A DNA stretch of 33,069 nt from a virus. Positions 7,883 through 28,399 of the stretch are shown here, piece after piece. Under the pieces are notes generated by a model. The model searched no databases, had not been told where the DNA came from, and saw only the letters and a program-made list of their open reading frames with translations. Made by a program: the position numbers and the translations under genes. The DNA lies in IMG/VR virus record IMGVR_UViG_3300033388_003953, positions 1 through 33,069 of that record; one strand, given 5' to 3'. Position 1 is the stretch's first letter; each line of letters opens with the position of its first letter.

Positions 7883-10800
7883 ATGGCACAAACTTTAGGT
7901 ACTTTGCTTATCAATGTTCAGGCAGATACTCAACATCTTGTAAAAGGATTTGACAGAGCAGAGCGTTCCGTAAATAAAACCACTAAAACTATGACTAATT
8001 CAGTCAAGGCTTTAACAGCTGCTTTTATTGGTTTAGGAGCGGTTGATTTAGCTAGAAGTTTCACTCAAAGAGTCGATGCAATGACTCTTATTAACAGTAG
8101 ATTAAAATTAGTTACAAAATCTACACAAGAACTTATCACAGCAGAAAAAGAACTTTTCAAAATTTCTCAAAATACTAGACAATCATTTGGTGAAACAGTC
8201 GATTTGTACTCTAGAATAGCAAGAAGTACAAAAACTTTAAACTTATCCCAAAATGAGTTATTAGATGTTACAGATACAATAAATAAAGCTTTAATTGTAA
8301 GTGGTGGAAGTGCAGAAAGTATGAGAGCAGCATTAGTACAATTAGGTCAAGGTTTTAACAGAGGAACATTAAGAGGAGAAGAATTTAATTCAGTTGCAGA
8401 ACAAACACCTAGATTAGCATTTGCTATAGCGGATGGTATGGGAATTGCAAGAGATAAATTAAAAGAATTTGCAGACCAAGGAAAAATTACATCAAAAGCA
8501 ATAATTGATGCTTTAACAAATCAGAGAGAATCAGTAGAAAAAGACTTTGATTTAATGACAAAAACGATACAAGGTTCACAACAACAAATTTCAAACGCAT
8601 TATTAAAAACTATTGGAGTTTTTGACGATATAAGCGGATTTAGCAAAGCAGTTTCAGAACAATTAACAACTGTGTCAAAATCTTTAGACGGTGTTGCAGA
8701 AAATTTACCAGAAATAATTGAAAACTCCACAAGACTAGCAAAAATAATAGGAGTTGTTGGAATTTCATATATCGCTTTAAATAAAAGTTTAAAATTATAT
8801 AATGGAATATCTCAAGTTGCAGTAACTAGACAAGTAACACTAGAAAAAGCAACTAAAGCACAGGCAAAAGCTCAAACATTAGCAATAAAATCAGTACAAA
8901 AATTAAACTTAGCAAACGCAATAGACACAGATTTATCTAAGAAAAAAATTAAATCTTTAAATAGTCAATCAATAGTACTTAGAAACCAATCTAAAAAACA
9001 AGCTATATATGCAACATCATTAAGAAAAACAGCAGCAGTTACAAACTTGACTACGAAAGCTACACGACTATTATCTGCAACTTTAAAAACAGTCGCACCT
9101 ATTGCAATAGCAACAGCAATTATAGCGATAGCAGATGCTTTTTTAACAGCTTCAGATAATGCAGATAAATTAAATGATACGGTTGATTCAACTACTGAGA
9201 AATTAAAGAAATTAACAACCAATCAATTATCATTTAGAAAATTACTATTAGAAGAAGAAATTACTAAACAAATAGCAAAAGAATTTGAAGCCCAATACCA
9301 ATTAGAACTAGGACGAGATAGAAATAACGAAAGATTAATAATTCAAAGAAAAGCGAAAATAGACGAAGAAAAAGCGAAATTAGAAGAACTTAGAAAAAAA
9401 TTATTAGAAATTAATAAAATTCAAGAAGAAGTAAATAAACCAAAAAAGACTATTTTACCAGGTGAAACTTCAAATCAAAACCAAGAAGAACTATTAAAAA
9501 TACAAAAAAGCTTAACAGAAGTATTAAATCCAAGACTTGCAGCAGAATTTAAAATAAATGAAAAATATGACGAAATGATAGTTAGCCTTGAAAAGGCAGG
9601 TGGATTACAAGCAGATATATTTGATATTGAAAAAGCAAGATCAATCGAATTAGATAGAATTAATGAAAAATATAAAAAACAAATAGATGATGTTTTAGAG
9701 TTAGGAGACTTTGATTTTAAAATTAGAATAGATGCCTCTGGATTTGATGCAGTATCAAAATCAATAATATCTCTTACAAATTCATTTGGTGAAATAAATG
9801 ACGAGCAAAAAGCATTTAATGATTTTACTAAAGAATTCGGAAAAATACAAAAACCAACTTTAAAAGATAAAGAAAAATTTAACAAAGCAGAGGAAAAACA
9901 CTTACAAAACCAAACCAATGGATATATGGCGGTAGCTGGTGCAATTAGTGGAATGTTTGCACAAGGTTCAAGAGAAGCCGCAGCATTTCAAGCAATTCAA
10001 TCAGCAATAGCAATAGTTTCAGGTGTAACTGCAATTCTATCTCAAGGAAAAGGCGACCCTCACACAGCAGTTGCAAGAATGGCAGCAATGGCTGCTTCAG
10101 TAGCTTCATTTTTAAGTAGTGCTGGTATTGCTTTTGGTGGTGGAAGTGTTTCAACAACTTCAGATGCGTTTTCAGCACAAGCGGAAAACTTAGGAAGAGG
10201 TTCAATACTTGGAGATACTTCACAAGGAAGCGAATCAATATCAGAAAGTTTAAATACATTAGAAGATTTTGCACAGCCACAATTTAGAGTTTTATCGGAA
10301 ATGAATAAAAGCTTAAATTCAATAGATCAAAAAATTGGCGGTGTTGCTTCACTTTTAATTCAACAGGGTGGATTCGGTTTTGGTGAGGGTTTCATAACTC
10401 CAGAATTTAATGATAAAGGGTTGGGTGTATCAATATCTAAGATAGCAGAAGATATTCCTGTTTTAAATATAATTACTGGGGTAATAGGGTCAATAGTAGG
10501 AGGACTTTTTGGAAAAACTTCAAGAAGCCAAGAATTAAGAGACTTTGGAATAAATTTCAACAAAGTTCTTTTAACTTCAGCAATTGATCAATTAACAGGA
10601 CAAACATTCCAAACAATAGCTACTACTGTTACTAAAAAATCATGGTTCAGAAGTTCATCATCTACAACTATAAGAACATTCTTTGAATCGTTAGATGATG
10701 AAATGGAACGTCAATTTTCATTAGTATTATCAGGATTATTAGACACTACAATATTAGCTGGTCAAGCATTAGATAGAAGTTCAAGTGATATAGAATCAAG

Positions 10801-19235: not shown

Positions 19236-20045
19236 TTATATAAACCCATAAATCCAATAATAAATTAAATTTTTGACTTGGATTTGTTGGTTTATCGTTT
19301 TACCGATAGCAGCAAAACGATAATATTTATATTTTATTCTTATTTGCGTTAAAATTAGTAAAATCAAAATATGAATAACTCTATTATCAATAATTTCTAT
19401 CTCTTTATTTATAATAAAATCATCCAATAACCCATCTACAAATTCCTTTTTTATCCCATGAGAGTATGCCTTTTTATATGTCAATTTAGTATATTTCTCT
19501 TTACTCATACTTGTAAATCTAATCTTCTTTTTTAACATACCTCTATAATCTCGTCTAACTGTATCTAATAGCAATAGTTTATCATCAGCGATACATTTAT
19601 CATAATCCTTTATAATGTATGAATAAACCGCCTCTTTGTGTTCTGGCATAGTTATCTCACAGAATTCACTAAATAAACCAAACTTTTCTATTACTTTATT
19701 TCTAATCTTTATTATTTGACTGTAATTATCATAAAATATTTGAGCGTGTACATGAGGATTTGAGTAATCATCCCCAAGTTCTATATTTGAGAAAAATTTT
19801 AATGTATCTGATTTAGTATTACTGATTAATTTTGAAAGATAGTTTTTTATCTCATTCATTACTTGCATTTTAAAATATTTATCATCATCTTGGTACGTGA
19901 AAGTAATCATCATTTTATTAAGGTGTTTGTATTTATTGAACATATAGAAGTATTCAAAGGTTTTTGAGCGGTTAGCTTTCTTTATAGCCTTAACTCTATC
20001 TATATTTGAAAAAGATTTGACATGATTAGAATTATTGACTATAAT
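19236..20045 (-). CDS. HUH-type replication initiator (Rep), probable non-AUG start
   Basis: Protein with the marks of rolling-circle initiators: motif I MITFTY, the HUH metal motif NPHVHAQIFYD (His-x-His), and a downstream YSYIIKDYDK with candidate nicking Tyr and the usual Lys. The first ATG (19943) lies only 11 residues before motif I. The frame stays open and protein-like for 45 codons upstream (VKSFSNIDRVKAIKKANRSKTFEYFY). In that stretch AAGGA sits seven bases before an in-frame ATT (20045-20043), giving 269 residues. Further up, a TTG at 20096 is in frame but followed by TAA after five codons. The C-terminal ~50 residues look low-complexity. The assignment is firm for HUH Rep, less so for the start. 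Confidence 0.72.
   Translation of the reverse strand: MIVNNSNHVKSFSNIDRVKAIKKANRSKTFEYFYMFNKYKHLNKMMITFTYQDDDKYFKMQVMNEIKNYLSKLISNTKSDTLKFFSNIELGDDYSNPHVHAQIFYDNYSQIIKIRNKVIEKFGLFSEFCEITMPEHKEAVYSYIIKDYDKCIADDKLLLLDTVRRDYRGMLKKKIRFTSMSKEKYTKLTYKKAYSHGIKKEFVDGLLDDFIINKEIEIIDNRVIHILILLILTQIRIKYKYYRFAAIGKTINQQIQVKNLIYYWIYGFI
19250..19285 (-). repeat. Hairpin 2 at the Rep 3' end
   Basis: AAATCCAA pairs with TTGGATTT (8 bp, 20-base loop). It lies six bases from hairpin 1 (19292-19323) inside the low-complexity C-terminal codons of rep. Neither hairpin is followed by a T run on the - strand, so they are poor terminators. Confidence 0.5.
19292..19323 (-). repeat. Hairpin 1 at the Rep 3' end, candidate origin
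   Basis: A 10-bp perfect inverted repeat, TTATCGTTTT with AAAACGATAA, enclosing the 12-base loop ACCGATAGCAGC (+ strand). HUH initiators nick in or next to such hairpins, often within or beside their own gene, so this is a candidate double-strand origin. The loop does not match a nick site I know. Confidence 0.4.
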
Positions 20046-21153: not shown

Positions 21154-21171
21154 GATTTATTTCCTTAATTT

Positions 21172-21260
21172 AAAGTTTAATAATACACTCACACCGCTAT
21201 TCACACGACCTACTTCTACTACTACATACAAGAATGATTGTGAGTGCATTATTAAGCTTT
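21172..21260 (-). repeat. Large stem-loop in the leader of the 20962-21153 gene
   Basis: Arms 21172-21193 and 21239-21260 are 22 bases each and complementary except for two positions (one G-U). The 45-base loop carries repeated CTAC/CTACTA units. The stem lies fully in intergenic DNA downstream of the methyltransferase. It could be an RNA element, a processing site or a DNA-level protein site. Confidence 0.65.
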
Positions 21261-21263
21261 AAT

Positions 21264-21283
21264 ATCCCCTCAAAAGAGGGAAT
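21264..21283 (-). other. Hairpin after the methyltransferase gene
   Basis: ATCCCCTC and GAGGGAAT (one G-U pair) with a four-base loop, just past the methyltransferase stop. It may end or protect the methyltransferase operon message; the sequence after it on the - strand (ATATTAAAGC) is a poor T tract, so termination would be partial. Confidence 0.45.
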
Positions 21284-22529: not shown

Positions 22530-22756
22530 TTGTAAGCCTTGATACTTAATATTTTATCAAAATCAATATCAAACTCATAAAATTTACATACCTCTAAAAA
22601 GTCTTTACTATTGATAATTTCTATAACTTCTTTATTACCAGCAAATACACCTTTTTCAAGTTTTTCAATTATTAATTTTTGCATATCTTCTTTTGATATT
22701 GTTCTAGCTATATTTTCGTGAATAACATCTATTGTTCCTTTAATAAAAGACTTCAT
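22526..22756 (-). CDS. Hypothetical protein, ASCH-methylase operon
   Basis: 76 residues, overlapping both neighbours by four bases. Helical throughout (ARTISKEDMQKLIIEKLEKGVF, EIINSKDFLEVCKFYEFDIDFDKIL). Not recognised; part of the ASCH-to-methyltransferase operon by overlap. Confidence 0.58.
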   Translation of the reverse strand: MKSFIKGTIDVIHENIARTISKEDMQKLIIEKLEKGVFAGNKEVIEIINSKDFLEVCKFYEFDIDFDKILSIKAYK

Positions 22757-23142
22757 AATATTTCACCCAAATTAATTACAAAAAAATTACCTTTACCTAT
22801 TGGAGTCTCAATATTTCTTTTAATCTCAATATTTTCACATTTTATTTTAAACATAGGAGCATTTTTTGAATAGCCATTTTTGAATATAATAGAAGTATAT
22901 TGTTTTGATTTTAATAAAAACATTTCATCTATTTCACCAATGAATTTATCAAGAGTTTTCCAACCATGAATATTAGAAAAATATAAATGAGGTTTTTCTT
23001 TTGATTTTTCAAAATAATCAATAGCGCAGAATCTTTTAATCCAATAAGGTTTGAATTCTCTAAATTCTTGTTTCTTTTTACCAGATTTAATTAAATCAAA
23101 CCATTCTTTTTTTAATGTGAGATGTAATAATTTTTTTTCCAA
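22753..23142 (-). CDS. ASCH domain protein
   Basis: 129 residues from a TTG at 23142 with AAAGGA upstream. The opening LLHLTLKKEWFDLIKSGKKKQEFREFKPYW is the ASCH signature (short strand, helix, then G-K-K-x-x-E-x-R at 21-28). ASCH proteins have a PUA-like fold and bind RNA or modified nucleosides; some act as nucleases or nucleoside hydrolases. It heads the operon ending in the DNA methyltransferase. The interleaved-repeat element lies in its leader. Confidence 0.8.
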   Translation of the reverse strand: MEKKLLHLTLKKEWFDLIKSGKKKQEFREFKPYWIKRFCAIDYFEKSKEKPHLYFSNIHGWKTLDKFIGEIDEMFLLKSKQYTSIIFKNGYSKNAPMFKIKCENIEIKRNIETPIGKGNFFVINLGEIL

Positions 23143-23200
23143 AATAAATCCTTTTAGATTTAGCCAAAGAAAATTTTAAGAGATTGTTTAAAAGTGAGGT

Positions 23201-23292
23201 TTGGCAGGTCCAACACGCAATAACTTATAGAATATATTAAAATAACAAGCGGACCTGCCAAGATTGAACTTGAATCCTAATATATTCTATAA
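23201..23292 (-). ncRNA. Interleaved perfect inverted repeats, pseudoknot topology
   Basis: Four arms in the order A-B-A'-B' on the + strand: A TTGGCAGGTCC (23201-23211), B TTATAGAATATATTA (23225-23239), A' GGACCTGCCAA (23251-23261), B' TAATATATTCTATAA (23278-23292). A/A' is an 11-bp and B/B' a 15-bp perfect match. The crossed order gives an H-type pseudoknot if transcribed, with connectors of 13, 11 and 16 bases. In the - strand reading a small extra hairpin CAAG/CTTG sits in one connector. No ORF covers it. It could instead be two overlapping dyad sites for DNA-binding proteins. Confidence 0.55.
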
Positions 23293-23403
23293 ATCATCTA
23301 AATATTAATAAAAAGGGGTAATTCCGAAAAAGGAGAGGTTGAGTATTTAAACCCTCAAAAGTTGTTAGATAAAAATACTATAACAATAAAAGTTAAACCA
23401 AAC

Positions 23404-23736
23404 TTAAAAAAATATCTCTTTCAAAGGAATTTCTCTATTAACCATATCGTGAGTACAATCACTCAAAAACTTTACAATTCCATCATTAACAAAAGAATGA
23501 CAAACAACATATTCACCATCTAAATATTCAGTAGTTTTAATACTTGGCTTTAATGTAGGTTTTTCAACATCGCCATTCCAAGACCAATTTTGAGTATTAT
23601 TTCTATCCCCTTTTAATTGAATAGGTATATATCTTTGATTTAGGATACAAGGAAAGTTTAACTCTACCCATGTAGCTTCATTGATAGGGCATTTAACAAA
23701 CTCACCTTTAAATCTTTTTAATGGAACTGCTTTCAC
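23404..23736 (-). CDS. DUF6527-like protein
   Basis: 110 residues from the GTG at 23736, which overlaps the stop of the small upstream gene (GTGA). The pattern NTQNWSWNGDVEKPTLKPSI at about 47-66, followed by VVCHSFVNDGIVKFLSDCTHDMVN near 77-100, matches the DUF6527 family: a WxWNG...PTLxPS block, then CHxFxxDGxIxFLxDCxH. The conserved Cys and His suggest metal binding. Function unknown; common in phages and mobile elements. Confidence 0.72.
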   Translation of the reverse strand: MKAVPLKRFKGEFVKCPINEATWVELNFPCILNQRYIPIQLKGDRNNTQNWSWNGDVEKPTLKPSIKTTEYLDGEYVVCHSFVNDGIVKFLSDCTHDMVNREIPLKEIFF

Positions 23737-28290: not shown

Positions 28291-28399
28291 ATTTAAGAAT
28301 GATAGCATTGATTAAATAAAAGTATTCTTAAATTCATTAAGTTTTAGTGTTAAAATGTATAATATAAAATGTATTCTAATTTAAACCATATTTAAGAAT
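28291..28399. promoter_or_regulatory. Divergent control region with three copies of a 10-bp operator-like motif
   Basis: ATTTAAGAAT occurs at 28291-28300 and 28390-28399, and in inverse orientation (ATTCTTAAAT) at 28324-28333. A degenerate relative, ATTCTAATTTAAA, lies near 28373-28385. The motifs sit between the divergent genes 28270 (-) and 28444 (+), as expected for a repressor controlling both early transcripts. Confidence 0.55.
28358..28363 (+). promoter_or_regulatory. Probable -10 box of the rightward early promoter
   Basis: A perfect TATAAT lies 81 bases before the first rightward gene. No good -35 is seen; many Campylobacterota promoters lack one. A motif copy lies just upstream (28324-28333) and another downstream of the expected start (28390-28399), fitting repression. 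Confidence 0.45.

Follow-up and report, generated by a model that had tools for sequence, protein, structure and literature searches.

The window, by which we mean the whole 33,069-nt stretch of viral DNA analysed here (IMG/VR record IMGVR_UViG_3300033388_003953), contains two perfect inverted repeats that cross in the order A-B-A'-B' at 23201-23292, as the original prediction described and as the letters confirm. Arm A (TTGGCAGGTCC, 23201-23211) has its partner A' at 23251-23261 over 11 bp, and arm B (TTATAGAATATATTA, 23225-23239) has its partner B' at 23278-23292 over 15 bp. The pair sits in the longest of the gaps that separate early genes (23143-23403, 261 nt), and the genes on either side (23404-23736 and 22753-23142) both lie on the minus strand. 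The claim that either arm alone would seldom arise by chance was borne out when the window was dinucleotide-shuffled 100 times: arms of at least 15 bp within 80 nt appeared 0.02 times per window, crossed pairs with both arms of at least 10 bp appeared 0.04 times per window, and none of the 100 shuffles contained an 11-bp arm that had at least seven G/C. The real window holds a single crossed pair of this kind, here called W1 (Table 1).

The perfect stems that were first described stand, but the element is to be read on the minus strand, which is the coding one; there the A stem (S2) measures 11-12 bp and the AT-rich B stem (S1) reaches 25 bp because flanking mismatches turn into G-U pairs. On that strand S1 consists of 20 Watson-Crick and five G-U pairs, plus a CAAG/CUUG extension, and the fold of W1 is 4.5 standard deviations better than that of shuffles, with a smaller gain on the plus strand. 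Since the 6-nt loop L3 is too short to cross 25 bp, the two stems could be present together only with the outer part of S1 unpaired. Searches by DNA similarity found no homologue of the W1 leader in phage or plasmid collections, the exact arms occur nowhere else among the viral contigs, no credible tRNA was found at W1, and no credible Rfam family was found for this or the other elements described below. We also rejected a terminator reading of W1, as there is no terminator-like site at the element, and a transposon reading, as no target-site duplication could be seen by eye.

The gene downstream had been labelled as encoding an ASCH-domain protein, a label that holds only through its homologue L002, which matches PF04266 above the cut-off; the window protein itself has no match in Pfam or NCBIfam. 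Feedback by this protein on its own leader, which had been thought conceivable, is not supported, as six of the seven elements precede other genes. No crossed element scored above threshold in the leaders of the ASCH relatives L002-L006 where these were scanned, and a scan for the DUF6527 neighbour found no relatives. One ASCH relative, at ~5100-5600 of L003, lies between integron attC-like sites (GCCTAAC...GTTATGC, identified by eye), which suggests that it is carried as an integron gene cassette.

Table 1. Parts of the crossed element W1, its downstream gene and the six further elements. Positions are those of the window unless another locus is named.
Feature	Position	Strand	Basis	Relation to gene
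W1, whole crossed element	23201..23298	minus, read 23298 to 23201	repeats, fold, shuffles, helix search	
S1 5' strand, GATGATTTATAGAATATATTAGGAT, 25 nt; perfect 15-bp core 23278-23292	23274..23298	minus	fold, helix search	
CAAG, inner S1 extension; partner CTTG at 23246-23249	23269..23272	minus	fold; assigned by eye	
Loop L1, TTCAATC, 7 nt	23262..23268	minus	read from sequence	
S2 5' strand, TTGGCAGGTCC	23251..23261	minus	inverted repeat, shuffles, helix search	
S1 3' strand, ATTTTAATATATTCTATAAGTTATT	23219..23243	minus	fold, helix search	
Loop L3, GCGTGT	23213..23218	minus	read from sequence	
S2 3' strand, GGACCTGCCAA	23201..23211	minus	inverted repeat, shuffles, helix search	
A/T-rich leader tail, 58 nt	23143..23200	minus	sequence	pseudoknot to start codon
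Likely Shine-Dalgarno, AAGGA	23149..23153	minus	position, sequence	
Downstream gene, TTG start, 129 aa	22753..23142	minus		ASCH-like via homologues
G006a	L122 9814-9907	coding		59 nt before start codon; uncharacterised 126-aa gene
G006b	L122 17035-17132	coding		before HNH/NUMOD-type gene
L131E1	L131 4438-4527	coding		before antirepressor gene, Rha plus KilAC
L131E2	L131 6309-6379	coding		before gene without assignment
L134a	L134 9171-9254	coding		before HNH/NUMOD-type gene
L134b	L134 7064-7141	coding		before antirepressor gene, AntA plus ORF6C

Relatives of the phage were sought through its portal protein, which returned about ten contigs at 72-83% identity. The 40-kb contig IMGVR_UViG_3300033148_003908 (G006), whose portal is 80% identical to that of the window, has no ASCH gene and carries in its early region a crossed pair with wholly different arms (G006a). 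With the G2P-like replication protein of the window as query, we recovered the contigs L130, L131 and L134. A helix search allowing G-U pairs detected W1, G006a, G006b, L131E1, L131E2 and L134a on the coding strand, and a relaxed search added L134b; the sample comprises only these seven elements in four phages. The arms of the six further elements are unrelated or barely related in sequence to those of W1, and three phages (G006, L131 and L134) hold two elements each. The suggestion of a leader pseudoknot is supported by this recurrence of the topology in three related contigs, with sequences that differ yet still pair.

All seven elements lie on the coding strand and end 42-67 nt upstream of the start codon. 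Where both strands were scored, G-U pairs favour the coding strand, which in some elements is alone in scoring; the exception is L134b, whose strands scored equally and whose two main stems contain no G-U pair. A near-consensus extended -10 box (TGnTATAAT or TGnTATACT) stands 6-13 nt before S1 in three of six elements, against a background of 0.019 per window; with the box in this position, S1 would start at or near the 5' end of the transcript. No clear -10 box precedes W1, G006a or L131E1, the last of which directly follows an intrinsic-terminator-like hairpin. S2 resumes past an interruption as a further 6-bp helix in four elements, and in three of these the interruption is a similar internal loop as read by hand (ACCU, GCC or ACC against GAA, AAA or AA). 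Behind S2, G006b, L134a and L134b have similar tails (CTCYCCTTAAATTTA or a near variant).

Across the family loci (165 kb), the helix search gave 10 strand-hits at or below -30 kcal/mol against 0.15 in shuffles, the 10 being six coding-strand elements, the mirror hits of these on the opposite strand, and W2, a long hairpin of the window. This family test was used instead of an excess test on mixed loci, in which GC-rich loci produced a high background. Among the other loci, 412 kb with less than 46% G+C yielded one match (-34 kcal/mol) where none was expected, a re-fetched copy of G006b being set aside. Some low-GC control phages gave a few weak matches above the shuffle level, none of them below -36 kcal/mol, and crossed matches in GC-rich control phage DNA were near the chance level. 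Two loci of more balanced composition, L007 and L009, contained isolated crossed matches, some of them within coding sequence. One pair of crossed helices in L009, a Clostridia MAG contig (5521-5442, minus strand; 9 and 17 bp, -40 kcal/mol), lies directly upstream of a reading frame that by eye is TnpB-like.

The elements have the two crossed helices on one strand that an H-type pseudoknot requires, and L131E2 reads as a textbook example (S1 13, L1 6, S2 12, L2 1, L3 12). When the CAAG/CUUG extension is included in W1, and the inner S2 helix in L131E1, L134a and L134b, these four have L1 of 7-9 and L2 of 0. H-type loops (L1 6-9, L2 0-1) can be drawn in five of the seven elements with extensions placed by hand, compared with two of 444 chance crossed pairs having L2 of 0-1 and L1 of 5-10, a comparison in which the hand-placed extensions flatter the H-type model. 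In G006a and G006b, L1 is absent and L2 is long and holds a hairpin. These two elements and the L3 of W1 do not plainly suit a fold in which a short L2 permits coaxial stacking and L1 and L3 reach across the stems. A stem exceeding one helical turn requires a free end that can pass through, so S1 and S2 may alternate; an S1 at the very 5' end of the transcript would supply one.

Every element pairs fully with its own strands and strands swapped between elements pair at 40-54%, a difference that is partly circular because the elements were chosen for having complementary S1 and S2 strands. Less circular evidence of covariation comes from L131E1 and L134b, which have sequence in common around S2 with pairs there changed on both sides, and entirely different S1 stems. 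The hairpin W2 (window 21163-21266, minus strand), which is not crossed, lies between the methylase gene and a gene for 63 aa. Its homologue at positions 1436-1520 of L130 differs from it by four compensatory pair changes, leaves no pair broken and keeps the loop stretch TCGTGTGAATAGCGG identical. Independently of the crossed elements, this suggests selection on structured RNA between the early genes of this lineage.

Recurrence, topology, strand bias, spacing and the excess over shuffles are computed results. We propose, with moderate confidence, that leader pseudoknots head separate early units of these phages and control translation or mRNA stability in cis. The shape appears to be kept and the sequence left free, and the knot probably controls the duration or the efficiency with which a message is used. 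W1 would be the 5' leader of an early phage mRNA transcribed from the minus strand, with transcription starting at S1. This leader is predicted to form an unusually large H-type pseudoknot, in which S1 would be a long AT-rich hairpin at or near the 5' end of the transcript and the GC-rich strand in its loop would pair with the strand just downstream as S2, the two stems presumably coexisting. Behind the knot would follow an A/U-rich tail of ~60 nt and then the start codon, and the related phages appear to place the same shape, built from other sequences, before several early genes. The knot would form while the leader is being made and act in cis. It may nucleate the binding of a protein that spreads over the unstructured tail and the ribosome site, comparable to T4 gene 32, or it may block decay that proceeds from the 5' end, a role that would suit a sequence-free 5'-terminal fold. 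Through an effect on translation or stability, every early unit would come under post-transcriptional control of its own. A broader idea, which we offer tentatively and consider rather doubtful, is that these leaders form a shape-coded class, with large, sequence-free knots at the 5' ends of many early units, on all of which one factor of phage or host, or the decay machinery, would act together by shape.

The closest functional analogue of these proposed leaders is the T4 gene 32 operator, whose pseudoknot, located in the leader at 67 nt from the start codon, nucleates the single-stranded DNA-binding protein (SSB) across an unstructured, A+U-rich tail that includes the ribosome site (PMC3014915). 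The elements resemble the T4/T2/RB69 operator in having a knot in the leader at a comparable distance (42-67 nt upstream) and an A/U-rich tail, but they are never followed by an SSB gene, they precede many genes with two elements per phage in three phages, and their stems are 8-25 bp long with arms that have almost no sequence in common between elements. No homologue of the SSB that G006 encodes at 8877-9362 was found in the window contig. STAXI (RF01728) is a short, tandem-repeated pseudoknot of Enterobacteriales, often with UUCG loops, found near genes for DNA-handling proteins of mobile elements (PMC2864571). The elements are likewise predicted pseudoknots near such genes but are single and large, and the RF01728 model did not match them. 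HDV-like ribozymes also have crossed P1 and P2 helices, with P1 of 7 bp at the 5' end; the hairpin between the helices in G006 adds to the likeness, but the corresponding helix is 9-25 bp here and the HDV-like Rfam models gave no match to the elements. In the leader pseudoknot of ColIb-P9 repZ, a hairpin loop pairs downstream and governs translation. The timP mRNA leader has a hairpin loop that likewise pairs downstream to govern translation (PMC11228461). Such loop-to-downstream pairing in a leader is common to both systems and our elements, but no toxin, replication gene or antisense RNA was identified at the elements.

Two rival readings keep the elements in RNA. It is possible, though unlikely, that they act as conformational switches in which S1 and S2 are mutually exclusive, so that exchange between a long hairpin and an S2-paired form changes access to the tail and ribosome site. 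The timP mRNA is a precedent for exclusive conformations involving a pseudoknot (PMC11228461), and the 25-bp S1 and 6-nt L3 of W1 cannot fully coexist. The S1 3' strand also has a second complement downstream, which is striking in L131E1 (10 nt) and G006a (9 nt) but only marginal over six elements (Fisher p 0.036), and in five elements the strands of S2 and S1 adjoin, which fits a stacked pseudoknot better. We regard as quite improbable a C4-type antisense RNA, in which the S1 hairpin would be excised as a small RNA and its loop, the S2 5' strand, would pair in trans with the S2 3' strand of the leader for sequence-specific repression. C4 antisense RNAs are structured, lie upstream of antirepressor genes and contain stretches that can pair with sequence further downstream. 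The order of parts is identical, S2 comes in two segments in four elements, sequences differ between elements as specificity requires, and two of the seven elements precede antirepressor genes (Rha/KilAC in L131, AntA in L134). Other genes follow the remaining five, however, S2 lies 42-67 nt from the start codon and so does not cover it, the strands of S2 and S1 lie next to each other as they would in a pseudoknot formed in cis, and neither RF01695, searched at a permissive threshold, nor any credible Rfam family matched the elements.

The other readings place the function in DNA. A structure in single-stranded DNA, serving as an origin, nick or recombination site for the G2P-like protein or another enzyme, seems very unlikely to us: the stems could form in single-stranded DNA and the G2P-like protein is encoded in all three contigs with further elements, two of which were found through it, but spacing to the start codons is fixed, the G-U pairs of the coding strand would pair more weakly in DNA, and sequence-specific initiators would require a common sequence. 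Two elements at different genes in each of three phages likewise argue against the single replication or partition site that had been entertained. Overlapping protein-binding dyads such as operators, also among the roles first proposed, would account for perfect palindromic arms in non-coding DNA with promoter-like boxes close by. This reading fits poorly and is highly improbable, as the arms lie ~40 bp apart, elements of one phage have no half-site in common, and what is kept while the arms differ between elements is complementarity, including the G-U extension on the coding strand.

A 2010 review considered the T4-type gene 32 pseudoknot as maybe the sole viral pseudoknot known in translational autoregulation (PMC3014915). 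A multi-copy set of leader pseudoknots in one phage lineage would make them a general early-gene device. Searches for sequence conservation would miss such elements because their arms share almost no sequence; a crossed-helix search picks them out of low-GC phage DNA.

Two further features of the window were observed. The G2P-like gene (19236-19943, minus strand) belongs to a tailed phage, and its product matches REP_ORF2-G2P, a replication-associated protein family known from small single-stranded DNA viruses. Relatives of this protein occur in five viral contigs, and the L131 homologue had no match in phage or plasmid collections. At 28291-28399, in the gap from which early genes diverge leftward and rightward, ATTTAAGAAT and ATTCTTAAAT alternate in three copies, a layout that looks like an operator region.
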